61,629 nucleotides of DNA from Thomasclavelia saccharogumia DSM 17460 (GTDB lineage Bacteria > Bacillota_I > Bacilli_A > Erysipelotrichales > Coprobacillaceae). The stretch lies in contig NZ_JMLH01000011.1 of the NCBI RefSeq assembly GCF_000686665.1, positions 1-61,629 of the forward strand. Reading direction: 5' to 3'. Below are positions 31,850 to 58,097 of this stretch, one piece after another; within the stretch, counting starts at the first letter, position 1, and each line of letters opens with the position of its first letter. Under the pieces are notes generated by a model that did not search any database, had not been told where the DNA came from, and saw nothing but the letters and a program-made list of their open reading frames with translations. Made by a program: the position numbers and the translations under genes.

Positions 31850-31880
31850 AAAAGTTTGATTTTATTAACCAAACTTTTAT
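31850..31880 (-). terminator. Terminator of the lacI-type gene
   Basis: Perfect 9-bp stem (31850-31858 with 31870-31878) followed on the minus strand by a T-run; it includes the stop codon of the regulator gene. Confidence 0.8.
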
Positions 31881-32884
31881 AACGTTGATTCATTCCAATT
31901 AACATAACAATCTAAGATTTGTTGCCCTGCTACTTCATTTTTTCCCTCGATTTGATCAATCACTATTTTTGCTGCTTCAAGCCCTTCTTCAAAAGCCGGC
32001 TGTACAATTGTAGTTATAGTTGGAGAAGAAAAATTGACCCATTCCATGTTATCAAAGCCCATTAATCCAATTTTAGGCATACGTTTGCAATGATGTTTCA
32101 TTGCAATAAAAACAGTTGGTAAAGCCCAGCAATTAGGTACAAATACTAATGTTTTTTTATTTAAATCAATTCGATTATCAATAAAATCTGCAATAACTTC
32201 AGGCTTAACTTGATCATTTTCAATAATAAAGGTTTCATGATGTAAATCATGATCAACCAAAGCATCAATAAAACCACTCGCCCGCTCAAGACGCGTACTT
32301 ATCAATTGTGGATCAGCTGTTAATAAGAAAAATTCTTCATAGCCTTTTTCTATACACTTAGTCGTCGCTTCGTAAGTTGCTTCATAATTATTAGTTTTAA
32401 CCCATTTAGTTTTTAAATCATATAATTTACTATCAAAAAAGACCATTGGTTTTTTTAATCCCTCAATCTTTTTTGATAACTTACGAAATTGTGCCGTTGG
32501 CTGAATAATAAAACCATCTACCCCCATTGAAAGCATTCTTTCCACATAATTTTCTTCTCGCTTATGATTATAATCACTATTTCCAACAATAATTTGGTAC
32601 CCATCTTTACTAGCAGCTGATTCAATTCCTTTAACAATCTGATTTGAAAATGTATTGGTAATATCCCCAATCAACACTCCAATCAATTTACTATTTTTAG
32701 AATTAAGTGAACGAGCTACAATACTGGGACGATAATTTGTTTTTTCAATAACTTTGGCAATCTTTGCCTTTGTTTCTTCTGACATCTTTTCAGTCTTCCC
32801 ATTTAAATAAAAAGAAACAGTAGTCTTTGATGTCCCAGCCATTTCTGCAATATCTTTAATTGTTATTTTACGTTCATTATCCAT
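31877..32884 (-). CDS. LacI-family repressor of the polysaccharide locus
   Basis: 335 residues. The LacI helix-turn-helix (about 6-52) contains ITIKDIAEMAGTSKTTVSFY and the hinge YRPSIVARSLNSK. A periplasmic-binding-like ligand domain follows (IGVLIGDITNTFSNQIVKGI). Its own promoter overlaps a 24-base palindrome at 32931-32954, and related palindromes occur at the lyase and PTS/uronate promoters. It is therefore the probable repressor of the whole locus, and of itself. The inducer is unknown, presumably an unsaturated uronate oligosaccharide or its product. Confidence 0.92.
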   Translation of the reverse strand: MDNERKITIKDIAEMAGTSKTTVSFYLNGKTEKMSEETKAKIAKVIEKTNYRPSIVARSLNSKNSKLIGVLIGDITNTFSNQIVKGIESAASKDGYQIIVGNSDYNHKREENYVERMLSMGVDGFIIQPTAQFRKLSKKIEGLKKPMVFFDSKLYDLKTKWVKTNNYEATYEATTKCIEKGYEEFFLLTADPQLISTRLERASGFIDALVDHDLHHETFIIENDQVKPEVIADFIDNRIDLNKKTLVFVPNCWALPTVFIAMKHHCKRMPKIGLMGFDNMEWVNFSSPTITTIVQPAFEEGLEAAKIVIDQIEGKNEVAGQQILDCYVNWNESTL

Positions 32885-33024: not shown

Positions 33025-33057
33025 TAAAAAAAGATTTCTAGAAATCACTAGAAATCT
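33025..33057 (-). terminator. Terminator of the lyase operon
   Basis: Arms 33032-33041 and 33048-33057 form a perfect 10-bp stem (AGATTTCTAG/CTAGAAATCT) with a 6-base loop and a T-run on the minus strand; it overlaps the lyase stop codon. Confidence 0.85.
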
Positions 33058-35647
33058 AATCATTTTTTTCAATAAAATACTTTTTTGTCAAAAGAATAGC
33101 AATCAATCCAGTTACGAAAAATAATAACATTACTTCACTACAGCTTATCTCATCCCCTGTTTTAATACTATTTTGTTTACTAACATCATCTGATTGATTA
33201 CCAGTATCAGCTTTTTTATTTACAATGATGTGACATTTAGCTTGATATTCAGTACCTTCAATAGCAGCAATAACATCTGCCTCTCCAACAGCTAAAGCTT
33301 TAAGCTCGCCATCTTTTACATCTACGATTTCTTGATTTGAAGTTGACCAAACAATCTTAGTATCTTCAGATACCCCTAAAACATTCAATTTAGCTCTATC
33401 ACCTACTAACATAGTAATTTGACTTTGATCTAACGTAATCACCGGCACTTTATATGATAATGTTATATCTTTAGTTACCGAAGCATTTTTAACAGTTGAA
33501 ATAGTAATATCTCCACTAATATCTTTAGCTGGATCTTGAATTAAACTAATACTCAAAGTACCATTTTCATTTTCTTGAATTGTTATATATGGTTTTAATT
33601 CTTCACTAATTGTTGTTCTTAAAGATCTTATCTTAGAATCAGTAGTTAAAATTGGAGTTAAAGTAATGGTATCGCCAACCTTTGTAAAAGTAGTTTTATC
33701 AGCTCTTACATCCAAATCAACGGCAGTCTTTGCTTCTGTAAAAATCATAGCTCCATAATACATAGCATTTGTTTTCGCTTCGTTTTTTGTACCCCCGGTT
33801 CTAAGTCTTTGTTCAGCAGCTTTAGTCAAAATTGAAACATCTTGATTTTCATCCACCTGGTTAAGATAATGATTACTAACAATTTCAAATACCATTGATG
33901 AAATATCAGAATTTAAACGATTTTTATCAGATACAAATGTTTTTGAATCGACATTATCCCCAAGTAAATAAGCTGCATTATATTTTGCCCCTACTAATAA
34001 ACGATCATTATATGCACTATATAAATTTATCCCTTGATTCCAAGCTACTTCAGCTTGGTAAGCTAATCCTGAGATCCCCATACGAGAATGTGTTGCATCA
34101 CGACTTGTTTCCTGTGATTCACCTGTAGCATATACATAATTTGGCAAAGACCCCATTGATGCTGTATTACCACCTTGAAGATTACCTAAATACATTTGTC
34201 TCAAAGCATCATTAAATAAATCAACATCCTCCAGATATACAGCAGCAGCCATATTAAAACCACCGATCAAGGCATCCCAATTACCATTTGCCTGTGGATA
34301 ATATTCGCTTGTTTTAGCTAATAATTTTTGAATGAAAGTTTCAAATTTTGCCATATCAGCAGTTTGCCACTTATCTTCACTAGCAATATTTGGATCATTA
34401 TTATATATATGTTTTAAAATTTCAGCAGCATTTAAATAATCTGGACCCACAATTGAAAACCTCAATTTCAAATCATTACCATCAGCCACAGTCTCTAAAG
34501 TCGTAGCCCAGCCATTTAATATTTCAATAGCTTTTTTAGCATTAGCCAAATCACCATCTAAATACCACATCAATGCATTATAGTATGCCGCACATCCATC
34601 ATTTGTATATTGAGTCCCACCATAATTAGGGTTATTATACGGACCTACATCCATTAATGATTGTGGTGCAGGAACATAATCAGCTTTTGCATATTTTGAA
34701 GCTTTCATTTCTTGATACCCTTTACCATAAACAGTATCTAAATCATCTTTATTAGCTTTTATTGTTTCTAGATCATCCATCGTAAAATAAATTCCTGGAT
34801 GCTCAAATTTAAAATCATCATCAATATATGGAATTTCATCAGTAGAAACATACTCATCTCCAACATAACTAACATCAAAATAATCTAAGTTCGGGCCATC
34901 ATAAACACCTTGTCCAGGAGGAGCTTGAATCCCTAATGTTACAGTATTTTCTCCTTCATCCAAATATATGTTCATAAAATTATCATTCCACTTTGTATTA
35001 CCGATAACATTTGCGTAGTTATTATCAGTTTGTGGTGTTAATGAAGTATTAGTATTAGCATCATATTGATCATTATAGCCAGAAATATTGAAAATCATCC
35101 AGCCTGCCCACTTATTGCTGTCAGTATAAAATTCTTCAGTGTTCCCTTCACTAACTGGCGTATTGATCATAATCCGGCAATTTCTTTCATCTCGATCATT
35201 ACGATACCCTTTCACTCGTGTTGCTGGATTGTTATATTTAAAACTAAATCGATAAAATCCTGATTGGGGCACTGTTACCTTCCAAGTAGCTGTATCATTT
35301 TTAATTGATTCAACAGGTTCCCCACCATTTTTATCAACTAATTGATAATCTTCTCCATACATATTATTACTAGCAAATTTAGTAATTGGATCACTAAAAT
35401 CAAGGTATTTCCCTCCATCTGCACCACTTAGAACTAGTTCAGCACCAATTACTGGTGAATCAACAGGAATTTTATCACCATCATTTCTAACATAAATATT
35501 CCCTGTACTTGAAATAAAATCTTCAGCTTGATAACGTTGATTAAACTTTTCAGAACTTTCTTGACCATGAATATTCATCATTGTTGTAAAACTTAGTGTT
35601 AAAGATATTCCTAGACTTATTGCTAAAACCTTTTTTACTTTTTTCAT
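33056..35647 (-). CDS. Wall-anchored alginate-lyase-superfamily polysaccharide lyase (short form)
   Basis: 863 residues. Signal peptide (1-28); CBM6/35-like N-terminal domain beginning RYQAEDF (about 38-262); alginate-lyase alpha-barrel (about 284-565) with the N-G-N-W-D motif at 454-458 and R-D-x-x-H at 516-520 as likely catalytic elements; a beta-rich part to about 735; a Big_2 domain (about 736-810); and a sorting-like signal IKTGD (828-832), helix and charged tail. It would cut a uronate polymer at the cell surface by beta-elimination. Second gene of a two-gene operon, 10 bases after the larger lyase. Substrate unknown. Confidence 0.85.
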   Translation of the reverse strand: MKKVKKVLAISLGISLTLSFTTMMNIHGQESSEKFNQRYQAEDFISSTGNIYVRNDGDKIPVDSPVIGAELVLSGADGGKYLDFSDPITKFASNNMYGEDYQLVDKNGGEPVESIKNDTATWKVTVPQSGFYRFSFKYNNPATRVKGYRNDRDERNCRIMINTPVSEGNTEEFYTDSNKWAGWMIFNISGYNDQYDANTNTSLTPQTDNNYANVIGNTKWNDNFMNIYLDEGENTVTLGIQAPPGQGVYDGPNLDYFDVSYVGDEYVSTDEIPYIDDDFKFEHPGIYFTMDDLETIKANKDDLDTVYGKGYQEMKASKYAKADYVPAPQSLMDVGPYNNPNYGGTQYTNDGCAAYYNALMWYLDGDLANAKKAIEILNGWATTLETVADGNDLKLRFSIVGPDYLNAAEILKHIYNNDPNIASEDKWQTADMAKFETFIQKLLAKTSEYYPQANGNWDALIGGFNMAAAVYLEDVDLFNDALRQMYLGNLQGGNTASMGSLPNYVYATGESQETSRDATHSRMGISGLAYQAEVAWNQGINLYSAYNDRLLVGAKYNAAYLLGDNVDSKTFVSDKNRLNSDISSMVFEIVSNHYLNQVDENQDVSILTKAAEQRLRTGGTKNEAKTNAMYYGAMIFTEAKTAVDLDVRADKTTFTKVGDTITLTPILTTDSKIRSLRTTISEELKPYITIQENENGTLSISLIQDPAKDISGDITISTVKNASVTKDITLSYKVPVITLDQSQITMLVGDRAKLNVLGVSEDTKIVWSTSNQEIVDVKDGELKALAVGEADVIAAIEGTEYQAKCHIIVNKKADTGNQSDDVSKQNSIKTGDEISCSEVMLLFFVTGLIAILLTKKYFIEKND

Positions 35648-35657
35648 TTTATTCCCC

Positions 35658-38600
35658 TTAATACTCTTTTTTCTTTAATTTTAAAACTATTCCTAAACTA
35701 ATTACAACTATACCGATCATTAGATAAATCGCTGATTCATCTCCGGTATTAACTCCTCCTTTAAATTCTCTAACTATTTCTTCAACTTTAGCATCATTAT
35801 TTATTTCTAAATCAGGCTTTTTATCCTCATTTTGAAGCAATACTAAATTATTCAAAGCCTCATTCAATAATTGATAAAGTTCAGTAACTTGATGATCATT
35901 AATTCTACCATATTTAGCATCAATGATTCCTTGCTCAGCTTTTTCAAGTGCAGTTATTAAATCTTGAAAACTAACTTGAGTATATTTATTTTCATCATTA
36001 GTTATTTCATTTGCTTTAGCAACTAAAACTTCTAAATCTGTAGTATCAGCCAAATCAATATTTTTTAATGCCTCTTGGCTAGTATTGTAGACTAAAATTA
36101 ATTTTTCATTATTTGAAATATCAGCACTATGCTTTGTAATTTTATTTCCTAACCGCATTGTTAAAATAGCATTTTGCGGATCACTAGCATTCTCTACATC
36201 AATATAAACAATTCGATTATCATATGCAGGTGAAACTAGATAATAAAAACCAGCACCTGTACATTTAAGAACAAATTTTTCTTTCTCACTAATATTTTTA
36301 GCATCAGCTTTAATAATATTTTCTTCACCAATTTGTTCATCTTTGACAGATAAATATGTGTTAGTCGTAATGCATCTAATTGCATAAGTACCATCTTGAT
36401 TATTTTCAATTTGATAATATGGTGCATCGGCTTTTTTACTTGAAGCTGTCAATTCTCCAGAATTTGTAACAGTGAAATATGAATTTAATGTTTCTGGAAT
36501 ATTATCAATTAATTCACCATATTTTTTAGCATCATTCCATGTTCTTTGATACCATGGCTCTAATCTTGTTCTTATTTGAAAAAATGGTTCACATACTTCA
36601 GTTGCTTCACCGCTATATGATGTTAAAGTGCCAAAATTCAAATTATCGTTATGAACATAGCCTTGAGCCCGCATTGCTTCAGCTGCTTTAGCCATCCAAG
36701 TTACATCAACACTAGAAACTTTAGAATAGTAAGCTAAAGGTAATTCATATACTGGTCTTAATTCACCCCGGTTAATTTTTTCACTATCAACTATTTTCCA
36801 TTTAGTATTACCAAACACATCAGTTAATGGCTCCATTTTTAATCCATTAGTATCGTACAGATTATATTGTGCTGCCCAATTAAAAGCTTTAGCCAGACGA
36901 TTATCATATAGATCAAATAAATTTTTATCTTGATTTAGAGCAACCTGGCAAATTTCCGCCATATATCCAATTCCTAACTGAGCATGCGCTTGATCTCTAA
37001 AACTTTCAACTGACTGTCCCCAGTCACTTACATAATTAACGATCGATCCATTAACATGGATATCTTGATATAAACTTACAGCACGATTATAAATTTCTGG
37101 ATTATCACAAACAACACCTATTGAAATCATCGAAATCATCGCTGCGGTATCCCAATTTCCATTAGCTAACATTGGTGCTCCCAAATCTTCAATAGCTGGA
37201 TAAATTACATTTTCCATAACTGTTTGAAACTTTTTAAAATCACTATCACTATACCCTTTATATCCACCATGATAATATTTAATAATTTCAGCCGCATTTA
37301 TATAACGATAACTATTGATTCCAGCACCTAAGATACGATCTCGACCATCTACCATTTTAAGAGTATTGGACCAGGCATTTAAAACATTAACAACGCATTG
37401 AGCATATCTATCTTCACCTGTTATTACCCATTGTAATGCATTAAAATAAGCAGCATTACCACCTTGTTCATAATTAACAATATTATGACCAGCTGGAGTA
37501 TTATCACCACGTCCTACTGCTTCTAAAGCTTGTGGTTGATAATCACTAGATGCCATATCATCAGGGACCATTGTTTGTAATTTCTGATAATCAGAATACC
37601 AAGGCTCTTCTTTATTTATGATGTGTTCTTTCATAGCATCTAGTTCTTCAGGTGAATGAGTTATTCCAGGATGATTGAAAATCTGAGTTTGTACAGTTAC
37701 ACTTTGAGAATCTTTCCCATTATATTCAACTACGATCTGATGCTCACCAGCTGACAAACCGTTTACTTGAGCAATAAATTTATCACCTTCTAAAGTAATA
37801 TTTCCTTTTGACACTTTATAATGACTAATATCTTGATCATCATTAACTGGATACCAGCTTAATTTTACATTTGTTCCTTCAACAGTTTGCCTTACTTCTA
37901 ACTGATCATGATTTATTACATCACAAAATTCAAATTTGTATGGTTCATTATTTTTAGTAGTGCTATATAATCGCTCATCCATTCGAATCATAGTTGTTGC
38001 ATAGTCTGCATTATCTCTAAGTTTAGTTAGATGACTTGTAATTATATAACGATCTGATTCTTGATAATAAGCTAGTTCAAAACGTTCATTCCAATTTACC
38101 GTAACAGCACCTGCTTTGATTTCATAACCATCATTAATACGATTATAATAACTTTTATCAGTATCCTGCTCATTAAAATAATTTTGAATCGTTAAATATT
38201 TATTATTGTCAAGACACTTTATAGCATAAGATTTTTTAGCATAATTTATTTCATCTTCAGCATACTGATAATCACGATAATCAAATATATATAAATTGAA
38301 TATAGCAGCTTCATTTTCATTAGCCGTTGTTTCAAAACTTTCATCATCTTTTAATTTTAGATACTCACCATCTTCATCCTTAATCAAAAAAGTCTTTTGC
38401 GCAATTGAACCATTATCTAAATAATTCCCTTCATTATTAATTGATTCAATACTAACAGGTTTTTCTGCATTGGCATAATCGATTTTTAAAGATAGCGGTG
38501 TCGTTGAACGTGATGAAAAAATTTCACTAGCAGCGGTTATTCCATCATCAACTTTATCAGTCGTAATATGTAAAGTAATTACTGATTTTCCGTCATTAAT

Positions 38601-39050
38601 AGCATCTAATAATAATTCTGTTATATCTAAACTTAGATTTTTATTTCCATTAGCAACTTCATATTGTTTTACTGGTGAATCACTTATATCACTAGGTCGT
38701 TTATTATAAGTAAGATTATTTTCATCCCATTTAGTAATACCATCTACCAAAAACTCATTGCTCTGACAAATAATAAAAGTATTTGCCCCATTTTTCTTTG
38801 AACCTTCTAAACTGATCATTTCAACATTATCTTTATCTATTGATGATAAATCAAAACGAATATATGCATGTCTTCCTTTACCAACGATCAATGTTTGTGA
38901 ATCATTAAAATTCTTATCACTCTGACCATTGAAATTGGAAACCATACCATCATTTAAAATATAATTATTTTCAACTGCATTTACAATCGTCAAAGGAGTT
39001 ATCATCACTAAACATAAAAATATTGATATAATATATTTTATTTTTTTCAT
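35658..39050 (-). CDS. Wall-anchored alginate-lyase-superfamily polysaccharide lyase (long form)
   Basis: 1130 residues. Signal peptide (1-26); a DNRLRE/CBM96-like domain (about 30-190, with GRHAYIRFDLSS); a trefoil/fascin-like region (about 205-375); an Ig-like domain (about 380-455); the lyase domain (about 460-735) with ANGNWD at 629-634 and RDQAH at 685-689; a further trefoil-like domain (about 855-985); FIVAR-type helices (about 1000-1072); and VNTGD (1100-1104), helix and KLKKK tail. It shares the catalytic motifs but not the accessory domains of the neighbour, suggesting different attack modes on one polymer. AAAGGGGA precedes the ATG. Confidence 0.85.
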   Translation of the reverse strand: MKKIKYIISIFLCLVMITPLTIVNAVENNYILNDGMVSNFNGQSDKNFNDSQTLIVGKGRHAYIRFDLSSIDKDNVEMISLEGSKKNGANTFIICQSNEFLVDGITKWDENNLTYNKRPSDISDSPVKQYEVANGNKNLSLDITELLLDAINDGKSVITLHITTDKVDDGITAASEIFSSRSTTPLSLKIDYANAEKPVSIESINNEGNYLDNGSIAQKTFLIKDEDGEYLKLKDDESFETTANENEAAIFNLYIFDYRDYQYAEDEINYAKKSYAIKCLDNNKYLTIQNYFNEQDTDKSYYNRINDGYEIKAGAVTVNWNERFELAYYQESDRYIITSHLTKLRDNADYATTMIRMDERLYSTTKNNEPYKFEFCDVINHDQLEVRQTVEGTNVKLSWYPVNDDQDISHYKVSKGNITLEGDKFIAQVNGLSAGEHQIVVEYNGKDSQSVTVQTQIFNHPGITHSPEELDAMKEHIINKEEPWYSDYQKLQTMVPDDMASSDYQPQALEAVGRGDNTPAGHNIVNYEQGGNAAYFNALQWVITGEDRYAQCVVNVLNAWSNTLKMVDGRDRILGAGINSYRYINAAEIIKYYHGGYKGYSDSDFKKFQTVMENVIYPAIEDLGAPMLANGNWDTAAMISMISIGVVCDNPEIYNRAVSLYQDIHVNGSIVNYVSDWGQSVESFRDQAHAQLGIGYMAEICQVALNQDKNLFDLYDNRLAKAFNWAAQYNLYDTNGLKMEPLTDVFGNTKWKIVDSEKINRGELRPVYELPLAYYSKVSSVDVTWMAKAAEAMRAQGYVHNDNLNFGTLTSYSGEATEVCEPFFQIRTRLEPWYQRTWNDAKKYGELIDNIPETLNSYFTVTNSGELTASSKKADAPYYQIENNQDGTYAIRCITTNTYLSVKDEQIGEENIIKADAKNISEKEKFVLKCTGAGFYYLVSPAYDNRIVYIDVENASDPQNAILTMRLGNKITKHSADISNNEKLILVYNTSQEALKNIDLADTTDLEVLVAKANEITNDENKYTQVSFQDLITALEKAEQGIIDAKYGRINDHQVTELYQLLNEALNNLVLLQNEDKKPDLEINNDAKVEEIVREFKGGVNTGDESAIYLMIGIVVISLGIVLKLKKKEY

Positions 39051-39131: not shown

Positions 39132-39182
39132 ACTAAACCGGTTTACTATAAATAGTATAACTTTAATTGAAAGCGGTGTCAA
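39132..39182 (-). promoter_or_regulatory. Lyase operon promoter with LacI operator and cre site
   Basis: On the minus strand TTGACA (39182-39177) and TATACT (39159-39154) have a 17-base spacer. A consensus cre site, TGAAAGCGGTGTCA (39168-39181), covers the -35 box. A palindrome with core TAAACCGGTTTA (39134-39145) lies just after the -10 box. CcpA and the LacI-type repressor should both act here. Confidence 0.85.
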
Positions 39183-39299: not shown

Positions 39300-40097
39300 T
39301 TATTTCTGTTTTATCTTTCGTCCCATCACCATAATTTGACTAAGTGCAGGAAACTGTGATTCTTCATCCGACATTTGCAAATTTGATAACATCAGCCAAG
39401 TGATTTTTTTTGTCGCAAAAGCAATTACTTGTCGACTTCCTGTTTTAGAAAGTTTAATTTCCTGTATCGTACCATCAGAAAAACTAATTTTTGCTTGATG
39501 CCACCAATTATCATGAGGAAAATCAGCTCGTAAATAAAGATATATTTTATCAATTTCTACCATAGTTCCAAAATCAACTTTTAACCAGGCATTACTTTGC
39601 TGATTAATTCCCCATGAACTATGAGGCCAGCTGCCATGGTTACTAGTTTCAAAGATACCATCGATAGCATTTCGCGCATAAAACTGTGGATTGGTTGTTT
39701 TCACATTAGTTGTAACGTGTGGATATAAGACTTGATTATAATTCGTATCAAAACTATTCTTAGCCACATTATGATAATTCATAAATTCTGCTTCACTAAT
39801 AATACTTGCATATGCAAAATGACGTTCTTGACTAAACGCACCAGCTCCATAAGGCTTACGTTCCTGGGCAAAAGGAATTGTAAAAGTATATTGATAGTCA
39901 GTTAAATATACCCAGCTCTCTTCCAAACTATCATCTAAGCGTAATTTTAAATATAACCCTTTTGTATCACTAACAATACATATTTTATCACCCGGCTGAT
40001 AATAACCACGATAAGCCATCGTGACTTCTGTTTCATTTTGTTTACTAAAAATTTCTTCATTATAACTATTTAAAACCATTAATTTTAAAAGTGCCAT
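39300..40097 (-). CDS. Cytoplasmic carbohydrate-binding-like protein (F5/8 type C-like)
   Basis: 265 residues, no signal peptide. The N-terminal half is beta-rich. The C-terminal half (about 130-262) resembles discoidin/F5-8C-type binding domains: NAIDGIFETSNHGSWPHSSWG, LKVDFGTMVEIDKIYLYLR and a terminal strand SQIMVMGRK. Such domains are normally extracellular, so an apparently cytoplasmic copy inside an oligosaccharide operon is odd. It is the last gene of the long PTS operon, overlapping the nucleoside-hydrolase-like gene by 13 bases. An enzymatic function cannot be excluded. Confidence 0.7.
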   Translation of the reverse strand: MALLKLMVLNSYNEEIFSKQNETEVTMAYRGYYQPGDKICIVSDTKGLYLKLRLDDSLEESWVYLTDYQYTFTIPFAQERKPYGAGAFSQERHFAYASIISEAEFMNYHNVAKNSFDTNYNQVLYPHVTTNVKTTNPQFYARNAIDGIFETSNHGSWPHSSWGINQQSNAWLKVDFGTMVEIDKIYLYLRADFPHDNWWHQAKISFSDGTIQEIKLSKTGSRQVIAFATKKITWLMLSNLQMSDEESQFPALSQIMVMGRKIKQK

Positions 40098-40972
40098 CGT
40101 TTCTCCTTCCTTGCAAATAATTCAATCTTACTGAGCATATCTTCTATAACAAAATAGTTATTTAATTGTTGATAAACACGAATCTTACGATTTTTTTGAT
40201 TATAGATATAATGATGCTCTTCATCAAAAATTGGTGCGATTATCTCTTGATAATAACTTTTTTGTTCCTCTAGTAAAACCCCTATAGCTCCAGAATCTCC
40301 CATGACCCAACATTCAGGATTGATCCAGTTTTTTTCTTTGGCATTAGTTTTCATAAACGTAATTAACTGCTCATATAAATATTTTCCTAATTTCCCCATT
40401 GGAGCTACTCTTAATTTTAACTGTGCCAAAGAAACTAAAGTAGTTTTATATACATTACTGGGAATTTGCCATAATGGTAACTCACTAGCAAATACATAAT
40501 TTGCTGCTATTAAATCATTTCCTAAATTACACTCTTTGCTTCCTTTAGGATAACGGCCGCCACCAACCCAAATTGCCGTCATTTTAGAAGTAATCCTTGG
40601 TTCCTCAAGCAGTGCAGCCGCTAAATCTGTCAAAGCACCTATATTCAAAACATATAAAGGTAATGAATCCTCTTTTAATGCTTCTTCAATAATTAATCTA
40701 GTTCCCGCACTTACTTCATATTCTTTAATATTCACAAGCTTTTGATCAGCACCTAAAACAATTGGATATTCACCATAAGTATTTGTAAGTTTTGCTAATT
40801 TAACCATTTCAGCATATGATAAATGATTCGTCCCATGATCACGAAAATGTCCTGCCACTAGCCCCTTGATTATAAATTTATTAGTCAGCATAGCATGTAC
40901 TAATGCATATTGGTCATCAGCCTCATTTTTAGCATCACTGCAAATAATTATCCTTATCTTATTTATTAACAT
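40085..40972 (-). CDS. Nucleoside-hydrolase-like protein
   Basis: About 295 residues from the ATG at 40972, which has GGAGG 5 bases upstream; a longer frame from 41002 lacks one. The N-terminus IRIIICSDAKNEADDQYALV has the paired Asp residues that bind calcium in IunH/DUF1593 proteins, and YVLNIGALTDLAAAL near 110 is another family feature. In glycan loci such proteins may cleave glycosidic bonds other than nucleosides; this is inference. It overlaps the upstream GH36 gene by 14 bases. Confidence 0.75.
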   Translation of the reverse strand: MLINKIRIIICSDAKNEADDQYALVHAMLTNKFIIKGLVAGHFRDHGTNHLSYAEMVKLAKLTNTYGEYPIVLGADQKLVNIKEYEVSAGTRLIIEEALKEDSLPLYVLNIGALTDLAAALLEEPRITSKMTAIWVGGGRYPKGSKECNLGNDLIAANYVFASELPLWQIPSNVYKTTLVSLAQLKLRVAPMGKLGKYLYEQLITFMKTNAKEKNWINPECWVMGDSGAIGVLLEEQKSYYQEIIAPIFDEEHHYIYNQKNRKIRVYQQLNNYFVIEDMLSKIELFARKEKRWHF

Positions 40973-43064
40973 TTTTCCTCCGTAAATAAACTGCCATTCC
41001 ATCGAATTTATTTAATCCTCTTAAAACTAATCGTTGTTTTTCAATAACCGCTTTTTTCAAACCATAAATTTTAATTATTTCATAGTTGTCTAAATCCACT
41101 TGAACATGAGCAGGACCATTTGCAAAAGTATGGAGTACAACTAATGCCTCATCGAGGTATTTACGGATAACTACTTGATATCCTGTCGGTTCTTTATAAC
41201 TTAATCCGCCTTGGTAATCAATAGTCGAAAATCCTAAATCAATAATATGACTAACACAGCGATAAAAAGTAATCCCTTCTTCTATCACCTGCCATTGTTG
41301 TGTAGATAAATCTTTAATATTTCCTGATAAACATAACCGTCCTAACAACCCACTGCTAATTTTATAATAAAGCAACGCTATTGTTTGGTCTGGCTGTACT
41401 ACTGCCCAAATTTGGCTTTGACGAGGTAAGATCATTCGTTGTAAATTAGCGCCGATAATTGGAATACATAGCGATTCATGGGCATCAGAAAACGAAGACA
41501 TATCTGTTATCTTTAAAAATGGTTCAACTAAACGGTGCCCTCCCGCACTACAATTTTCAATTATTAAATTAGGTAGAACATGCTTTATTTTTCTTATATA
41601 TTCTTGAGTAGCTTTTATCCCGCGATAAAGTTGTTCCCCTAATGAATCACCACCATCCATTCCAATTCCCAGATTATCATTATAATCAATTTTTAAATAA
41701 TCAAATTCATTATCTTCTAAAAATTTAAGCACATGTTCATCTAAGTAGTTAATCACACTTTGATCCAATAAATTTAAGAAGCGTCGATTTCCTGAAGTAA
41801 TGGGATAACCATCACGCTGATATAAAAAATCTTGATGCTTAAATAATTCAGCCTCACGACCGCAGCTTTCAAACTCAAACCAAATACCGGCTTTCATTCC
41901 CCTTTGATGAATATAATCAACAACTTCCTTAATTCCTTGAGGAAACAATTTGCGATTATAATTCCAATCACCATGTTGAATATTCCAAGAATCATTATGA
42001 TCAACAGCGTGTTTATACCATCCGCAGTCAATAACAAAATATTTGATTCCCTTATTCACCAATAAATCAATTGTCCTTTTAATCTCACTAGCCTGAGGAT
42101 TGCCCCAAGTAGTACAAAATTCATTAAAAATGATTGGAAGTTCTTTTTCATCATCTTTGATATCCAGCTGAATATCTCTAACGATTCGCTGTGACAACTC
42201 ATCAATATTACCCTGAACTACCGAAATCATTGCTTTAGGAGTTTGGAATTCTTGATTAGGTTTTAAGATTTTCAACCAATGTCCCTTTTCTCGATCAGCA
42301 ATTCCTCCTGAAAGGCATAACGCATTATCTTTTCGATATACTTCTAACTGCCAAGAACTTGCAATTGCTAACTGAATTCCCCAAAGGACATTAACGTTTT
42401 TATCTTCAATCGCTATAAAAGGAAAATATTCACGATTTGGCATACTGCCAACTTGACCAAATCTAATACTGTTTGCTCCAGAAGGTTTCCATGATGGTTC
42501 TAACATTGATTCTTCAATTGGACGAGTAACTAAACGCCCTTCATAAGCCCAAGTACTTTTAATTTGATGCATCAATAGACTTTCCTTAGCTAACCCTTTA
42601 GTAAATGGAGTAATTGAACCTAAAGTAAAACTTGATATCATTTCAATTTTTATATTTTTATTAGTTCTATTGATCACTTTAGTAAAGGTGTTTATAGCTT
42701 TGCTACCAATATCAAACGATAAGTGATGTTGATAATCAATCCCTCTATCATCATATAAATGAGTAATAATTGTATAATGCGTGTCTTTAATTATTTTTTC
42801 TTGGAACTGATATTTTAATTTAAAAGTTGTTTCACTATTGCGCATTGTCCTACCTTGAGAATAATTGAACGGATAATCATCACCAACTAACTTCACTTGA
42901 ATCAACGGTTCAATATCATCGTTTTCATCAATAATCTGATCAATCATTGAAATAGGTATAATTCTTAATCCTACAACCTCATGCCCTTTACGATCCACTC
43001 CGCGTAAATAACAAATCTGCATATCCTGACTATTATATGTCGCTAATATCTTATTCATCTTCAT
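40959..43064 (-). CDS. GH36-like alpha-galactosidase/N-acetylgalactosaminidase (copy 2)
   Basis: 701 residues, no signal peptide. Melibiase-type barrel with the probable nucleophile D460 in YLKIDYND and the acid/base near D527 in SSFSDAHE; ENCSAGGHR lies between. It belongs to clan GH-D but differs from the neighbouring GH36 in the nucleophile segment (KIDYN rather than KWDMNR), so its leaving group or linkage probably differs. It overlaps the end of copy 1 by 14 bases, so they are translationally coupled. Confidence 0.88.
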   Translation of the reverse strand: MKMNKILATYNSQDMQICYLRGVDRKGHEVVGLRIIPISMIDQIIDENDDIEPLIQVKLVGDDYPFNYSQGRTMRNSETTFKLKYQFQEKIIKDTHYTIITHLYDDRGIDYQHHLSFDIGSKAINTFTKVINRTNKNIKIEMISSFTLGSITPFTKGLAKESLLMHQIKSTWAYEGRLVTRPIEESMLEPSWKPSGANSIRFGQVGSMPNREYFPFIAIEDKNVNVLWGIQLAIASSWQLEVYRKDNALCLSGGIADREKGHWLKILKPNQEFQTPKAMISVVQGNIDELSQRIVRDIQLDIKDDEKELPIIFNEFCTTWGNPQASEIKRTIDLLVNKGIKYFVIDCGWYKHAVDHNDSWNIQHGDWNYNRKLFPQGIKEVVDYIHQRGMKAGIWFEFESCGREAELFKHQDFLYQRDGYPITSGNRRFLNLLDQSVINYLDEHVLKFLEDNEFDYLKIDYNDNLGIGMDGGDSLGEQLYRGIKATQEYIRKIKHVLPNLIIENCSAGGHRLVEPFLKITDMSSFSDAHESLCIPIIGANLQRMILPRQSQIWAVVQPDQTIALLYYKISSGLLGRLCLSGNIKDLSTQQWQVIEEGITFYRCVSHIIDLGFSTIDYQGGLSYKEPTGYQVVIRKYLDEALVVLHTFANGPAHVQVDLDNYEIIKIYGLKKAVIEKQRLVLRGLNKFDGMAVYLRRKNVNK

Positions 43065-45225
43065 TTATCTCTTTTAAATACCATTGTTTACTATAAAAAT
43101 CCTCTTTAACTTTTTCTAGAGGTAAACCAACATTCATCAAAACACTCCCATCATAAACTTGATTATCTTCTAATAAACAATATTTAGTATTTACTTTTAA
43201 TCCTTTCAATTTTAATCGTTTCGGTACCGTATTTGGCTTAGCCAAGATCTGAACATAGCTCACTAATACCTGCTTTTGATAGAGATACATCCAAGCCTGT
43301 TCATTATCATTGTCTTTCAAACGATATAAATCACCAAATTGAATAATTGGACGAAGTTTTTTATACTTAGTTATTTGATTTTTAATCACAGCTAGTTCAA
43401 GATCACTAAGTTTTGTTAAATCTAACTCATATCCCAAAGTTCCTTGCATTGCGACAACAAAACGAGTCTCAATACCTGTAATCCGACCAACTTGATGATT
43501 AGGTGAAGCCGAAACATGAGCCCCCATACTAATTGCTGGATAAACCATTGAAGTGCCTTTTTGAATCGTTAAACGTTCAATCGCATCACTATCATCACTA
43601 GCCCAAATTTGCGGCATATAATAAAGCATCCCTGGATCAAAGCGTCCACCCCCACCAGCACATCCTTCAAACAAAACTTGGGGATATTTACTCACTAGAA
43701 CATCAAGAATATGATATAGGCCTAACATATAGCGGTGTAAGACTTCTTTTTGTAAATGCACTGGTAAATAATTAGAGCCAATATCGGTAATATTACGATT
43801 CATATCCCATTTGATATACTCAATATTAGCACTATCTAAAATATTACTAACAGCTTTGATTATATAATTTTGAACTTCTGGATTACATAAATCTAAAACT
43901 AATTGGCAACGGGAAGTCTGTGGTTGATAATCTTGCACACGAATCACCCAATCAGGATGCTTTCTATATAAATCACTATTCGGATTGACCATTTCTGGCT
44001 CCAGCCATAGACCAAACTTCATTTTTAAAGCATTGATCTGCTTAACTAATTTGTCTAATGGACCACCAATTTTTCTTTCGTTAACATACCAGTCTCCAAG
44101 CGAACTGGTATCATCATTACGTTTGGCAAACCAGCCATCATCTAAAACAAATAATTCAATTCCTAATTTACTAGCTTGTTTGGCCAAAGAAAGTAATTTT
44201 TCTTGATTAAAATCAAAATAAGTAGCTTCCCAATTATTAATTAAAATAGGGCGAAGCCTTTTAGCAAAATGACTTATCATTAGACATTCACGATACAAAT
44301 GATGATATTTACGACTCATTTCCCCAAGCCCTTTTGAACTATAGATCATTATAACTTCCGGGCTATAAAAACATTCTCGCGGGGCCAAATCCCAACTAAA
44401 ATCAAAAGAATTTATTCCCATCATCATTCGTGTATTTTGATGCATATCAACTTCAATATTTGCCTCAAAATTACCACTATAAACTAAATTCATACTATAA
44501 ATATTTCCATGATCTTCATTTGCATCATGATCCAGCAAAGCAATAAATGGATTTTGTCCATGACCACTTGCTCCACGTTTACTATCAACGATAAAATTCC
44601 CTTGTCTGAGTGCTTGACGATTTAAATGACATTCACGTCCCCAAGCTCCATTTAATGATAAACAATCAAACTGGTCATCTAAGAAACTAAAATTAGCACT
44701 CATAATTTTTTCAATGACAATATCTTGGTTATTATGATTAATTACTCTAACACTTTGACTAATTGCATCTTGATCAAAAAATATTGAAAAACTTAAAACT
44801 ATTTCTAATTGTTTAATTTGATCAACCATACTAAATTCTATAGTTTGCGCTTTATCACTTAAAACTGTTGGTAATCCACAAATTTTCTTTTTACCCTCAA
44901 TAATTTTATATTTAGTGAACTCAAAACTAGAAATTCTTGAGCCATCTTGATATCTAAACATAAATGCCGGTATCCGCATATCAGGATTACCATAAGCTGG
45001 GTATAATAGTGGCATCTGTTCTAATTTAAAATTTCTATTTCCATCTAAATCACTTAAATAACTAGCCCGTTTGATTTCTTTAATAAGATAACTAAACGTT
45101 TGATCATAAACTCGTTTTCCCCAATATAAACAAACAAGGTGCCCTGAATCGAGCACACTAAAAATCATTGATGTTTTATTTGTTTGGAGATGAAATGTTT
45201 TTTCATGCTCTAAAATCTCAATCAT
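43051..45225 (-). CDS. GH36 alpha-galactosidase (copy 1, canonical)
   Basis: 724 residues, the usual length of bacterial GH36 AgaA-type enzymes, without signal peptide. The nucleophile is D474 (YIKWDMNRNITD) and the acid/base lies in WASDDSDAIER (541-551). LEPEMVNPNSDLYRKHPDW (about 409-427) and GCAGGGGRFDPGMLYY are family landmarks. It removes terminal alpha-galactose from imported oligosaccharides in the cytoplasm. AGAGGA precedes the ATG. Confidence 0.95.
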   Translation of the reverse strand: MIEILEHEKTFHLQTNKTSMIFSVLDSGHLVCLYWGKRVYDQTFSYLIKEIKRASYLSDLDGNRNFKLEQMPLLYPAYGNPDMRIPAFMFRYQDGSRISSFEFTKYKIIEGKKKICGLPTVLSDKAQTIEFSMVDQIKQLEIVLSFSIFFDQDAISQSVRVINHNNQDIVIEKIMSANFSFLDDQFDCLSLNGAWGRECHLNRQALRQGNFIVDSKRGASGHGQNPFIALLDHDANEDHGNIYSMNLVYSGNFEANIEVDMHQNTRMMMGINSFDFSWDLAPRECFYSPEVIMIYSSKGLGEMSRKYHHLYRECLMISHFAKRLRPILINNWEATYFDFNQEKLLSLAKQASKLGIELFVLDDGWFAKRNDDTSSLGDWYVNERKIGGPLDKLVKQINALKMKFGLWLEPEMVNPNSDLYRKHPDWVIRVQDYQPQTSRCQLVLDLCNPEVQNYIIKAVSNILDSANIEYIKWDMNRNITDIGSNYLPVHLQKEVLHRYMLGLYHILDVLVSKYPQVLFEGCAGGGGRFDPGMLYYMPQIWASDDSDAIERLTIQKGTSMVYPAISMGAHVSASPNHQVGRITGIETRFVVAMQGTLGYELDLTKLSDLELAVIKNQITKYKKLRPIIQFGDLYRLKDNDNEQAWMYLYQKQVLVSYVQILAKPNTVPKRLKLKGLKVNTKYCLLEDNQVYDGSVLMNVGLPLEKVKEDFYSKQWYLKEINEDE

Positions 45226-45236
45226 TTTAATTCCTC

Positions 45237-46802
45237 TTAATCATTATTCTCTTGGTAGAATTCACTAAAAACAGCTTTAGTATCTTTATTAAAATTATCA
45301 ACTGCACTAATTGCGATGACCGCCCCAGTATAAGCCCATCCAGAAACATGCTCATCACTTAAAATAGATGCATCCAGCACCGGACCAACTACCTCAAACT
45401 TAGAATCATCACAAGCATAATAAAACTGAATCTTATCCTGTTTAACCATTACTTTTAAAGATATTCTTTTTACATCATCATTTACATATTTATAATTACC
45501 TTCCAAAGGCTCATTAAAATTAAAATTATCATTTGTCAAAATATTAATAATTCTTTGTTTCTTTACTTCATCATAGCCAACATATAGATAGTGAAATGCT
45601 TTAGTATTATAAAAACAACTCAACCCAGCTGTTTGATTATAGTGATATGGCTTAAAACACAACGTAGTTCCTGCAACAAAGTCAAAACTAGTCCACCTTC
45701 TCGCAATCAATGATTGATCAAACAACGAGGTTAATGAATCATTTCCCTTTAATTCTAATCCAGCATCAACTAAATTCACTTTATCTTCAAATTTTGTCCT
45801 TAAACTTAACCAGCCCTCATTAACAAAATCAATATTTTTAAAGTTTGTATAATATTTATTTTCTAGACCCTGGTTAACTGTTTCACCTGGAGCTTCAACT
45901 TCTACCAAAGGTGTGCAGTCACCTTGAACCATTCTCGGCCAATCATTGATCCATTCAATTTTTTGCAATGATGTCTCACGTCCTAATACCGAAACCTCCT
46001 GTTCATTTAAATACCGTGCACATAAATGGACTAAATACCAGCCATCATCTGTTTCCACAAAATTACCATGACCAGATTTTTTTAAGATCGTATCTTTTTG
46101 CCAAGCCGTAATAAGTGGATGATATGGTGAAATTTCATAAGGTCCCCAAATATTCTTAGAACGAGCCACACAAATCGAATGATGTCTTCCTGTTCCTCCT
46201 TCAGCAGCAATAATATAATAAAAATCACCTTTTTTCATCAAATGCGGTCCCTCTGTTCCACCTGTCGCACTACCTTTGAACACTACTTTTGCTTCTCCAA
46301 TCATTCCCTTTTCAAAATCAAATTCTTGTAAGAGTAAGCCATTAAACTTTTTATGTCCATTCAAAGGACGGGGATCCCATTGTGGATTTAATACATAATG
46401 TTTACCATCATCATGAAACATTGAAGGATCAAAACCAGAAGCATTAATAAAAAGTGGCTCACTCCATGGACCATCAATTGTCGGGGCAGTAATAACATAA
46501 TTTTCAACATCTTTGAAATAACCATCAATTTGTTTAGAAATAGTATAAATTAGATAAAAAGTATCTTCATAATAAGTTAAGGCTGGTGCCCAAACTCCAG
46601 CCGAATCCGGAATTCCCCGCAAATCAAGATTACTTAAAATTGCTCCATGGCGTCTCCAATTAACCATATCATCAGATTCATAAACGCTTACTCCCGGCAG
46701 CCATTCAAAAGTTGAAGTGATAATATAATACTTATTCTTAGCTTTACAAATACAAGGATCAGGATTAAACCCTCGTAAAATTGGATTAATAATTTTAGTC
46801 AT
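45237..46802 (-). CDS. GH43 glycosidase (beta-xylosidase / arabinofuranosidase type)
   Basis: About 521 residues, cytoplasmic. The five-bladed propeller domain opens with NPILRGFNPDPCIC (catalytic base Asp), then SGFDPSMFHDDGKHYV (pKa-modulating Asp) and GGTEGPHLMKKG (acid Glu). The C-terminal beta-sandwich (about 320-520) is of the GH43_C2 type found in xylosidases. Exact substrate, xylose or arabinose, is not decided. The ATG at 46802 has GAGGAG in the end of the upstream gene and overlaps its stop; a longer frame from 46817 has none. Confidence 0.92.
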   Translation of the reverse strand: MTKIINPILRGFNPDPCICKAKNKYYIITSTFEWLPGVSVYESDDMVNWRRHGAILSNLDLRGIPDSAGVWAPALTYYEDTFYLIYTISKQIDGYFKDVENYVITAPTIDGPWSEPLFINASGFDPSMFHDDGKHYVLNPQWDPRPLNGHKKFNGLLLQEFDFEKGMIGEAKVVFKGSATGGTEGPHLMKKGDFYYIIAAEGGTGRHHSICVARSKNIWGPYEISPYHPLITAWQKDTILKKSGHGNFVETDDGWYLVHLCARYLNEQEVSVLGRETSLQKIEWINDWPRMVQGDCTPLVEVEAPGETVNQGLENKYYTNFKNIDFVNEGWLSLRTKFEDKVNLVDAGLELKGNDSLTSLFDQSLIARRWTSFDFVAGTTLCFKPYHYNQTAGLSCFYNTKAFHYLYVGYDEVKKQRIINILTNDNFNFNEPLEGNYKYVNDDVKRISLKVMVKQDKIQFYYACDDSKFEVVGPVLDASILSDEHVSGWAYTGAVIAISAVDNFNKDTKAVFSEFYQENND

Positions 46803-48015
46803 TTTGTATCTCCTCAATAAGTTTTAAATTTTTGCAATTAGTTATTTTAACTAAACTATTTTTGTTTATTTTAAGCATTGTAGTTTTATTAAAAATCACA
46901 TTATCCATAATCAATTCAATACTTTCATCAATTACTAAAAAAGCATCTTGATTGCAGTAATCAATAAAAGCGTCTTTAATTACTAATTGACATCTTTCAC
47001 CATTGCCTTTAAATAATGATGATTGTTTTAAATTAACCAGCTTAACATTCTCAAAAACTATTTTTCTAAGCGGCAAATTATTTTGTAGCATCTTTTCATT
47101 CCCTTGATCATAAACTAATAATTTTGTAACATCTTCAAATTCACTATTTTTAATGATAATATCATCACCATCTTCGCGAATCTTATCACAGCAAATCGCA
47201 TAATATTTAAAAACTGCATGAGTATTATAACTATTTGTAGAACGATGCGGATAATGTCCTGGACCAACAAATTTACAATGATCAAAAATAAGCTTATTTC
47301 CACCAATTCTAAGTACGTTACATGCGGTATTAAAATAGCAGTCTCTAACTAATAAATTTCTAATATCATAACCTGCAACACAATCATCACCAGTTTCTAG
47401 ATGACAATCACTAATTTGAATATCACTACAATGATGAAGATTGAAACCATCATGTCCTGCTTTAATATTTACATTATTAATAATTATATTTTGACAGCTG
47501 TCTAACTGATGCGACCAGTTAGCACTATTAACAAATGTATAACCTAGCAAAGTAATATCCTCACATTGACTAAAGATGATTCCCATCGGTCCTCGAAATT
47601 TTTCTTCACCATTTTCATCATAACAATCTTGACCGTTAATTACCAAGCCACATTTGCCAATGATTTTAATATCTTGAACTTGAAAAGCACAAATTATCCC
47701 ATATATATAATATTCAGGTAAATTCCATAATTTAATATAATCTTCATTTTGTAAATAACCTAATGTACTGGGTATTTTAAAATCATGATAATCTTGATAA
47801 TTATTACTACCATATAACCTGGCATTTTCTTCTAATAACAAAGTCATGTGTGAATATAATCTTAAACTGCCAACATAATATTTACCTTCAGGGACAATGA
47901 GCGTACCTCCCCCCTGTTTTAAACAAGCATCAATAGCGCTCTGAAATGCTTGCGTCTGCAATTCTTGGCAATCTTGTTTAACTCCATAATCTAAAACATT
48001 GAAATAATTATCCAT
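46795..48015 (-). CDS. GH28-like right-handed beta-helix protein
   Basis: 406 residues, no signal peptide. It begins FNVLDYGVKQD and has a pectate-lyase-like beta helix. AGHDGFNLHHC and TGDDCVAGYDI resemble the two Asp-bearing motifs of GH28 polygalacturonases, but the usual G-H-G and R-I-K motifs are not apparent (RIGGNK stands near the latter place). It may act on a sugar other than galacturonate, or belong to a related helix family. GGGGGA precedes the ATG; AT-rich C-terminal third. Confidence 0.78.
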   Translation of the reverse strand: MDNYFNVLDYGVKQDCQELQTQAFQSAIDACLKQGGGTLIVPEGKYYVGSLRLYSHMTLLLEENARLYGSNNYQDYHDFKIPSTLGYLQNEDYIKLWNLPEYYIYGIICAFQVQDIKIIGKCGLVINGQDCYDENGEEKFRGPMGIIFSQCEDITLLGYTFVNSANWSHQLDSCQNIIINNVNIKAGHDGFNLHHCSDIQISDCHLETGDDCVAGYDIRNLLVRDCYFNTACNVLRIGGNKLIFDHCKFVGPGHYPHRSTNSYNTHAVFKYYAICCDKIREDGDDIIIKNSEFEDVTKLLVYDQGNEKMLQNNLPLRKIVFENVKLVNLKQSSLFKGNGERCQLVIKDAFIDYCNQDAFLVIDESIELIMDNVIFNKTTMLKINKNSLVKITNCKNLKLIEEIQND

Positions 48016-48026: not shown

Positions 48027-48842
48027 CTATAAAATATATTTTTCAATCACATCAGCAACACCATGATGATTATTATCAAAATCACTGATCACATCAGCTT
48101 TTTCTCTAATTGCTTTCGTAGCATTCTTCATCGCTACTGCCAATCCAGCTGCTTCCAGCATTTCTAAATCATTTTCATTATCGCCGATACAAATAACTTC
48201 ATTTACATCAATTGATAAATATTTTGCTAATTCCTTTACAGCGGACCCTTTAGTAACTTGTTTATCGGTTATATCAACATAATCAATGTCCGACATCGCT
48301 ACTGCATAAAGATTCAGCTCTTCAAACTCATTTCTGATTTTCTGATATTTATTCTTATCTCTTTCTAAAATAGAAATTTTTACAATATCTTGGGCATGTT
48401 CAAAAATTAAATTTTGATAATCTTCTGGATCTTTAGCAATAATGAAGTCAGCTTTTAAGCTGCCTTTTTCTAATTGTTTTTTCCAAGAATTTGAAACATC
48501 ATTATTTCGAATTGAAAATTGTGGGGTGCTAAATGCTGCATATGTTTTATTTTCAACAATAACTTGATAAGCTTTTTCCAATTGTTCCTTAGTCAAAGTA
48601 TGCTTTAAAACCGCTTTGCCATCATCTTCGAGATAAGCACCATTTAAACAAATCAATAATGGACTAACCCCAATTTGTTTAAAAATCTCATTTAAAGAAT
48701 TAGGTGTCCGTCCTGAAGCAATTGCAATTCTTATACCTGCCTTATCAGCTTTTTTTAAAGCCTCAATATTTTGCCTGGATATTGATTTATCGTCGCTAGC
48801 TAAAGTACCATCAACATCAATGCATAGTAATTTATATTTCAT
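48027..48842 (-). CDS. Cof-type HAD-superfamily phosphatase
   Basis: About 271 residues. Motif I is CIDVDGTLASD, motif II IASGRTP, the lysine is in KQVTKGSAV, and motif IV is IGDNENDLEMLEAAG: a complete type IIB HAD hydrolase. In PTS operons such enzymes may dephosphorylate sugar phosphates that accumulate; the substrate is unknown. The ATG at 48842 is preferred to the TTG at 48854 and lies 3 bases after the GH88 stop. Confidence 0.92.
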   Translation of the reverse strand: MKYKLLCIDVDGTLASDDKSISRQNIEALKKADKAGIRIAIASGRTPNSLNEIFKQIGVSPLLICLNGAYLEDDGKAVLKHTLTKEQLEKAYQVIVENKTYAAFSTPQFSIRNNDVSNSWKKQLEKGSLKADFIIAKDPEDYQNLIFEHAQDIVKISILERDKNKYQKIRNEFEELNLYAVAMSDIDYVDITDKQVTKGSAVKELAKYLSIDVNEVICIGDNENDLEMLEAAGLAVAMKNATKAIREKADVISDFDNNHHGVADVIEKYIL

Positions 48843-48847
48843 TTTAC

Positions 48848-49984: not shown

Positions 49985-49993
49985 AGTCATCTC

Positions 49994-52434: not shown

Positions 52435-53292
52435 TTATCCGCCACAGACTCCTAATACAGTTAGAAGCACTGATGCAGCAAACATTACTAATAATACGGT
52501 AATTGGTTTATTTTTCTTACGTAAGTAGAAGAAAGAGGCCATTGTAATTCCTAGTGGTAATAAACCAGGCATAATTTGATCTAAGACATTTTGTAAATTA
52601 AACACTGTTCCCCCAAAGTCGGCAACGAATGTTGTTTTAAAACTTACATATTGGGCAGTCATTGCCCCAGTCATAATCAAACCTAAAACCGCAAAACCTT
52701 TAGTAAAAGCCTTGATTTGACCTGAAGCAAGAGCTTTTGAAATATACGTACTACCTAATTTTAAACCAAATGTAGCTCCAAAATATCTAATTAAAATATT
52801 AGGAATATTATAAACTAATGCAAATAAGATCGGCCCTAACCAAGATCCACTTTGAGAGAAACCTAAAGCAATCCCAGTTGCAATAATTCTTAAAGCCCCA
52901 GAATAAATAGAATCACCAATTCCTGCAAACGGTCCCATTAAGGCAACTTTAATTGCTTCAATTGAAGCATCATCAAAATCTTTACCAGCGTCTAAACAAG
53001 CTTTTCTTTCTTGCTCCATAGAAATAACTAATGAAAAGATAAATGGTGACATTCCTGGTGTTGTATTAAAGAAATCTTGATGACGTGACATTGCATCATA
53101 AAATTCATCCGTTTCCTTACCATAGATGTCCTCTAAATAAGGTATCATTGTCCAACCAAATGTTGTTCCTTGTTGTTTTGTATATGACGTACAGAACATT
53201 AACCACATTGATCTCCAAAATACTGATCTTACTAGTTTCTTTTGTTCTGACGTAAGTTTTGTCTTCATTGAAGGTGCTGCTGTATTAGTCAT
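52435..53292 (-). CDS. PTS mannose-family IID component
   Basis: About 285 residues. It has the IID landmarks VFWRSMWLMFCTSYTKQQGTT-like start, MGPFAGIGDSIYSGALRII near 135 and several membrane helices in the C-terminal half. IIC and IID together form the translocation channel of mannose/sorbose-type PTS. The ATG at 53292 overlaps the IIC stop and has GAGG nine bases upstream. Confidence 0.96.
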   Translation of the reverse strand: MTNTAAPSMKTKLTSEQKKLVRSVFWRSMWLMFCTSYTKQQGTTFGWTMIPYLEDIYGKETDEFYDAMSRHQDFFNTTPGMSPFIFSLVISMEQERKACLDAGKDFDDASIEAIKVALMGPFAGIGDSIYSGALRIIATGIALGFSQSGSWLGPILFALVYNIPNILIRYFGATFGLKLGSTYISKALASGQIKAFTKGFAVLGLIMTGAMTAQYVSFKTTFVADFGGTVFNLQNVLDQIMPGLLPLGITMASFFYLRKKNKPITVLLVMFAASVLLTVLGVCGG

Positions 53293-54148: not shown

Positions 54149-54151
54149 ATT

Positions 54152-54643: not shown

Positions 54644-54676
54644 GATTTTATTTCCCCTTTCTGTCTGTTAAATTCA

Positions 54677-56299: not shown

Positions 56300-56315
56300 C
56301 GAAAAGGAGAATCGT

Positions 56316-56951: not shown

Positions 56952-57046
56952 TAGTGCTGTTACATGTATATTAGCTGTCCCATTACCTTTTATTTCCTCT
57001 CTCCTTATAAATATAATAATTGCTGATTATACATTGTAATATATTT

Positions 57047-57071: not shown

Positions 57072-57086
57072 GAAAGGAAAATAGAA

Positions 57087-58088: not shown

Positions 58089-58097
58089 GAGAAAATT

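Follow-up and report, generated by a model that had tools for sequence, protein, structure and literature searches.

A nucleoside-hydrolase-like protein in a glycan operon of Thomasclavelia saccharogumia as a candidate furanosidase, separate from its discoidin-type neighbour

Two overlapping genes at the end of a phosphotransferase (PTS) operon in Thomasclavelia saccharogumia DSM 17460 raise the question of whether their products, a nucleoside-hydrolase-like (NH-like) protein and a discoidin-type protein, act together or apart, and on which sugar. An earlier note on this DNA had suggested that they may form a two-part glycosidase. We analysed the whole stretch of 61,629 nucleotides, here called the window, and Table 1 lists its features. 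The operon occupies the minus strand from ~55105 to 39300 and runs in the following order: mannose-family PTS components EIIA, EIIB, EIIC and EIID, a 207-aa ORF for which no convincing family match was found, DUF2264, GH88, a Cof-type HAD protein, GH28, GH43, two GH36 proteins, the NH-like protein and the discoidin-type protein. A 210-aa ORF stands in the same gap between EIID and DUF2264 in a second Thomasclavelia genome (locus L013, genome G008). No nucleoside gene was found in the PTS operon, in agreement with the earlier note.

A LacI-operator-like palindrome, TAAACCGGTTTA, occurs at 7 sites with at most one mismatch, compared to 1.98 ± 1.50 sites in shuffled sequences. Near-copies lie at 39246, 55145, 55341 and 32937. 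The copy at 55145 precedes the PTS operon, the one at 55341 the divergent uronate genes and the one at 32937 the LacI gene, while those at 39134 and 39246 precede the alginate-lyase-type gene. As the palindromes stand at the starts of several units, the PTS operon, the uronate genes, the lyase-type genes and the LacI gene probably form one LacI regulon. The palindromes are centred on AACCGGTT, and one further copy, at 51671, is internal to the PTS operon.

Table 1. Features of the window discussed in the text
Feature	Position	Strand	Basis or remark
LacI-family regulator	31877..32884	-	
Two large proteins that carry alginate-lyase-type domains, immediately past the gene pair	33056..39050	-	
LacI-operator-like palindrome	39134..39145	not assigned	
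Discoidin-type gene (265 aa, two-domain, predicted cytoplasmic)	39300..40097	-	Pfam, AF2
Overlap of NH-like and discoidin-type genes (13 bp)	40085..40097	-	
NH-like gene (295 aa, predicted cytoplasmic Ca-dependent furanosidase)	40085..40972	-	Pfam, AF2, PDB match
Asp cluster D13..E17..D19-D20, equivalent of DxDPGxDD plus two extra residues	40913..40936	-	PDB nucleoside-hydrolase alignment
GH36/Melibiase-like protein	40959..43064	-	Pfam
GH36, all three domains	43051..45225	-	Pfam
GH43 with GH43_C2	45237..46817	-	Pfam
GH28-like	46795..48015	-	Pfam; weak rhamnogalacturonidase match (NCBIfam)
Cof-type HAD phosphatase	48027..48854	-	
GH88/GH105-like unsaturated uronyl hydrolase	48848..49990	-	
DUF2264 protein	49994..51781	-	Pfam
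207-aa ORF	51744-52367		between EIID and DUF2264
Mannose-family PTS EIIA, EIIB, EIIC, EIID	52435..55105	-	
Divergent unsaturated-uronate genes: SDR (KduD-like), RpiB-like, PfkB kinase, KDPG-aldolase-like	55493..58736	+	

Both ORFs of the pair are real, and they do overlap at the end of the PTS operon as the earlier note had stated. The NH-like gene has an alternative, longer ATG at 41002; the start at 40972 is favoured because GGAGGAAAA stands before it. AAGGAG precedes the ATG of the downstream discoidin-type gene, and each of the two genes thus has a good ribosome-binding sequence. Read directly from the sequence, neither N-terminus resembles a signal peptide, so both proteins would lack an export signal, as the note had held for the discoidin-type one. 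Overlaps run throughout the operon (GH36/GH36 14 bp, GH36/NH 14, GH43/GH28 23, HAD/GH88 7 and EIIC/EIID 32, all computed from the first start codons listed), and we therefore rejected overlap as a sign of coupling.

Relatives of both proteins were collected. For the NH-like protein a single scan across species genomes gave 348 matching relatives, and the best 80 of these, the window and three loci from a separate genome search make up 84 NH loci. The alignment has 83 rows, as L088, whose ORF is extended to 460 aa, was left out. Some NH rows are not independent: L021 and L065 overlap on one contig, L023 and L028 come from one genome, and L011 and L087 are identical. Of 299 genomes from one clostridial family, 49 carry discoidin relatives, at 54 places. 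From the 49 genomes we fetched 39 regions; 36 have a clear ORF, and L159, L170 and L171 were left out as they showed no discoidin ORF at E 1e-15.

The discoidin-type domain reported in the earlier note is recovered by Pfam, with matches to DUF7402 (E 8e-10, 39.3 against a cut-off of 27) and to a NedA-like discoidin domain (E 1.5e-6, 29.2 against 27.8); the F5/8 type C model falls just below its cut-off (27.9 against 28.2 bits). In the AlphaFold2 model (pLDDT 88) the C-terminal part resembles 7wdt (Z 14.1 over 140 residues) and other galactose-binding-like domains (Z ~13). Stand-alone binding proteins of the CBM32 type exist, for example the polygalacturonate-binding protein of Yersinia. Like these, the window protein has a discoidin-type domain and no catalytic module, but it differs from them by an extra N-terminal domain of ~105 residues, the lack of a leader and its Kdu neighbours. 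We scored six kinds of unsaturated-uronate genes (KduI, KduD-like SDR, RpiB-like, KDG kinase, KDPG aldolase and GH88/105-like). They occur near 20 of the 36 discoidin relatives compared to only 7 of the 84 NH loci (Fisher 7e-8, ignoring kinship). Five of the six kinds are present in the window, where the SDR and RpiB-like proteins are 84% and 59% identical to reference copies. We read the discoidin protein as most likely serving the catabolism of lyase products, i.e. unsaturated uronates, on its own, either as an accessory or as an enzyme. Whether it goes beyond passive binding and takes part in unsaturated-uronate metabolism as an enzyme or as a ligand sensor is a tentative matter, and we rate this narrower version as possible but not the likelier case. 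There are 31 invariant positions across the 36 rows, many of them polar (including N110, N114, D117, H127, N131, H154, R190, D192, H195 and D196), and the KduI, KduD-like, RpiB-like, GH88/105-like and KDG kinase neighbours point the same way; however, the galactose-binding-like fold of the C-terminal half is typical of binding modules and 16 of the 36 loci have none of those uronate genes nearby. A second discoidin-domain copy in the window genome (G000:C11:47127-47768, L010) lies inside a 667-aa open frame, and in genomes of the same genus the second copy is found inside frames of 1073-1619 aa.

The NH-like protein matches IU_nuc_hydro (PF01156; E 7e-16, 59.1 bits against a cut-off of 34.2) and, with its N-terminal part, Sde182_NH-like (PF07632; E 4e-10, 40.3 against 26.8). 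Its AlphaFold2 model, based on the 83 rows, has a pLDDT of 96.2 and matches nucleoside hydrolases in the PDB with Z 26-31 (~31 for 1mas/4kpn; 31.1 over 271 residues for 1mas). For RihA, PMC2898832 describes a calcium ion bound by Asp10, Asp15, Asp241 and Thr124 O that takes the 2' and 3' hydroxyls, and the RihA counterparts of the conserved residues given below bind the calcium and the nucleophilic water; Asn158 and Glu164 bind O5', while a proton for the base can come from His240. The Asp-rich, calcium-type site that the earlier note had recognised is real and conserved over the 83 rows. Judged from the alignment, all calcium ligands of RihA are kept (D13 in 82 of 83 rows; D20, D226 and T115 in 83), and E17, D19, E147, N149 and D153 are likewise found in 83 of 83, with E147 taking the place of Glu164. 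With RihA and CfNH (both PF01156) the protein thus shares the fold, the calcium ligands including the main-chain ligand Thr, and the E-x-N motif. Unlike these known nucleosidases it has an Asp-cluster loop that is two residues longer (profile aligned to PDB sequences) and a loop before E147 of the E-x-N motif that is about four residues shorter, and it stands in a glycan operon, not in a nucleoside context. It also lacks two nucleoside-handling residues: Asn158 aligns, by sequence alignment and not by superposition, to S145, a position at which 3 of 83 rows have Asn; His240 aligns to G225, which is Gly in 80 of 83 rows and His in none. Apiofuranose has a 2,3-diol and carries no hydroxymethyl group on C4. 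The residue pattern, in particular the missing 5'-OH-binding Asn, therefore fits apiose, without singling it out.

To see the company that the family keeps we assigned 98 operonic neighbours from 67 NH loci to Pfam families. Among the 25 commonest of the 72 families, sugar ABC transport, GH78, GH43, FGGY kinases, solute-binding proteins, Melibiase (GH36), PF13204 apiosidase-like proteins and GH3 stand out, and no nucleoside family occurs among these 25. Given the glycoside hydrolase, sugar kinase and sugar transporter neighbours and the two absent residues, ordinary nucleosidase activity is improbable for the NH-like protein, as the earlier note had suspected. A cassette of four genes recurs, consisting of an L-fucose/L-arabinose-isomerase-family protein, a transketolase split over two genes, and an FGGY kinase that is glycerol-kinase-like. 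Three or all four of its genes were observed in 18 of the 84 NH loci (the best 80 of 348 relatives plus four); the other 66 have fewer than three in the DNA fetched, and 59 of them none. For at least 18 of the 84 loci to lie within 10 kb of a cassette by chance, P is ~4e-20, a value that assumes 3-Mb genomes with one cassette and is computed over loci that are not independent. The cassette-bearing loci lie on scattered branches (Spirochaetota, Lachnospiraceae, Bacillaceae, Oscillospiraceae and Paenibacillaceae). On the NH tree the cassette label clusters no better than in shuffles (72 of 500 as low), which fits a scattered association and does not bear on the place of origin. Two or more cassette genes were found in none of the 39 discoidin regions.

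The identity of the cassette links these loci to D-apiose. E. coli SE15 carries the D-apiose cluster that served as query in PMC13001218, and according to that paper cluster-bearing E. coli grew on D-apiose. A Klebsiella plasmid cluster resembles the SE15 cluster closely (transketolases 78.5 and 77%, kinase 70% identity), and all four cassette parts are homologous to this Klebsiella cluster, with 25-29% identity between the isomerases. Both the Klebsiella and the cassette isomerases hit the sulfoquinovose isomerase model of NCBIfam at a similar low score, and no PDB sequence relatives of the cassette isomerase were found at E 0.001. A Paenibacillus cassette shows 48, 38 and 39% identity to SE15 AptA, AptB and kinase. 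Cassette transketolase copies reach 43-49% identity to SE15 AptA and other split transketolases of the same genomes 36-43%, and transketolase similarity alone would be weak evidence for apiose. In one case the cassette kinase exceeds the cut-off for glycerol kinase. The cassette at 18 of the 84 NH loci is thus homologous to the SE15 pathway, its isomerase by way of the Klebsiella cluster, but the identities are only 25-49% and the window genome yielded no such cassette. PF13204 or DUF5060 proteins are encoded within the cassettes of Listeria and Monoglobus. In one Listeria monocytogenes record (L135:5296-13086) the isomerase, the split transketolase, the glycerol-kinase-like gene, a beta-glucoside PTS and a full PF13204 protein stand in a row, and the 'glycerol kinase' there may be the kinase for the isomerised sugar.

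We then reversed the comparison and started from the cassette. The isomerase is present in 40 of 104 Paenibacillus-family genomes, and 40 cassette regions were fetched; two come from one genome, the query genome was left out and L229 is a 4-kb contig. An NH gene was observed in 5 of the 40, where it follows the kinase immediately and in the same orientation, a Sde182-type NH gene in 4 and a DUF5060/apiosidase-type gene in 17. No region carries two of the three (P 0.003 for the exclusion of 9 versus 17, P 0.051 for NH alone, both ignoring kinship). For 14 of the 40 regions none of the three glycosidase-type genes lies within the DNA fetched, and NH is absent from 35. Most simply, the three kinds of gene would encode alternative glycosidases that act on the same sugar. 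Sde182-type NH-like genes (PF07632) stand beside an apiose-type cassette at L042:11960-13480 and in L209, L212, L229 and L238. The Sde182 family was named for cellulose binding, and the literature found raises no apiosidase role for it. The open-access literature searched names Sde182 but not DUF1593, and it yielded no text naming both apiose and nucleoside hydrolase, none joining nucleoside hydrolase to polysaccharide utilization, and no joint mention of apiose with apulose or with GH140.

In the pectic domain rhamnogalacturonan II (RG-II) and in many plant glycosides apiose is a key sugar, and to our knowledge few apiose-releasing enzymes have been described. The explanation that we prefer, with modest confidence, is that the NH-like protein is a lone calcium-dependent furanosidase for O-glycosides, the likeliest substrates being beta-D-apiofuranosides, and that the discoidin protein is a separate helper for lyase products. 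The calcium, bound by D13, D20, D226 and the main chain of T115, would hold O2 and O3 of the furanose, and a water ligand of the calcium, close to D13 and N149, would by analogy with RihA serve as the nucleophile towards C1. Unlike nucleosidases, the protein has neither a His that could protonate a nucleobase nor an Asn where the 5'-OH would bind. In the window the substrate would be a PTS-imported oligosaccharide on which the GH28, GH43, GH36 and GH88 enzymes act alongside, and cleavage would take place in the cytoplasm by the NH-like protein alone. RG-II would be a possible target of the operon: breakdown of one RG-II fragment requires an alpha-galacturonidase, an alpha-arabinofuranosidase and a beta-apiosidase, and BT1012 is a beta-apiosidase (PMC7939467). 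The window protein would resemble apiosidases of that type in its predicted reaction and operon neighbourhood, but it belongs to an unrelated family and has no match to PF13204 at E up to 0.1. BT1012 itself is classed in GH140. A wider proposal, which we hold somewhat less firmly, is that this widespread branch of the NH fold (348 relatives matched, 80 kept) consists of apiofuranoside O-glycosidases that replace the GH140 type found in related operons, with Sde182 as the extracellular counterpart. The window protein is linked to Sde182 by its N-terminal match and by the 4 of 40 cassettes with Sde182-type genes; it differs in having no leader and no Pfam match to Sde0182_C (PF21027). If true, many gut, soil and plant-associated genomes carry inosine-uridine nucleoside hydrolase labels on apioside cutters, and the calcium-dependent furanosidase mechanism extends from nucleosides to plant glycans.

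The apiofuranoside assignment is less certain for the window's own clade than for the family. This clade comprises 7 rows with full support (the window, Thomasclavelia, Clostridium HBUAS56010, Hungatella UBA7603, Vagococcus and two lactobacilli) on a long stem (1.03), and it is sister to L033, L058 and L077. No match to the cassette isomerase was found in the window genome, which has a full-length transketolase only, so any apiose released would be without a known route in this organism. Within the clade a close isomerase was found only in the Hungatella and Vagococcus genomes, at sites other than NH; in the remaining genomes no isomerase of close identity was found. The residue two positions before D13 is C or V in the window clade and D or N in the others, which together with the long stem suggests that the substrate may have shifted. 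It is conceivable, if unlikely, that the NH-like protein cuts another furanoside (e.g. arabinofuranosyl or ribofuranosyl O-glycosides of a lyase-derived oligosaccharide) and that apiose is the substrate only in related clades. The stem, the changed residue 11, the missing isomerase and the clade neighbours (PTS, DUF2264, GH88, HAD, GH43 and GH36 types in varying subsets) would all accord with this. On the other hand, the calcium and 2,3-diol pocket residues are unchanged, the clade nests beside the cassette-bearing L033, and two of its genomes do have the close isomerase elsewhere.

We regard it as improbable that the protein is a nucleoside hydrolase or ribosidase that frees ribose within a sugar operon. 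Fold and Pfam family would suggest as much, and among the distant relatives L003 (38%) adjoins a ribokinase-like gene and L012 (28-29%) lies by eye beside HD-domain and small phosphatase-like genes, for which there was no family match. Against this stand the residue pattern and the neighbour survey described above, and the NCBIfam nucleosidase models, whose best score of 31.8 misses the equivalog cut-off of 382. That the two proteins form a single two-part glycosidase is highly improbable: despite the 13-bp overlap, the common operon and the adjacency seen also in L013 and the Vagococcus locus L016, a discoidin relative adjoins NH in only 3 of 84 NH loci (these two and the window), the gene order in L016 is reversed with discoidin upstream of NH across a 40-bp gap, overlaps are frequent in the operon, and none of the 36 discoidin relatives has an NH-like ORF within ~7 kb. 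At E 1e-8 such an ORF was absent from all 39 discoidin regions. Since most NH relatives lack a discoidin partner, the NH-like protein can do without it. The two genes are therefore best read as co-transcribed neighbours encoding separate proteins that presumably do not interact. What stands of the earlier reading is the doubt about ordinary nucleosidase activity; the coupling to the discoidin protein does not.

Elsewhere in the window we noticed a block at 26018-30967 with a glycyl-radical PFL-like enzyme, a radical-SAM protein, a transaldolase-like protein and a DeoR regulator. A large protein at 22217-25702 combines a GH123 catalytic domain with a bacterial Ig-like domain. At 11310-14084 and 16068-19157 lie Rep_trans and FtsK-like genes of the sort seen in integrative elements, and a SpaA/TQ-domain surface protein is encoded near them.
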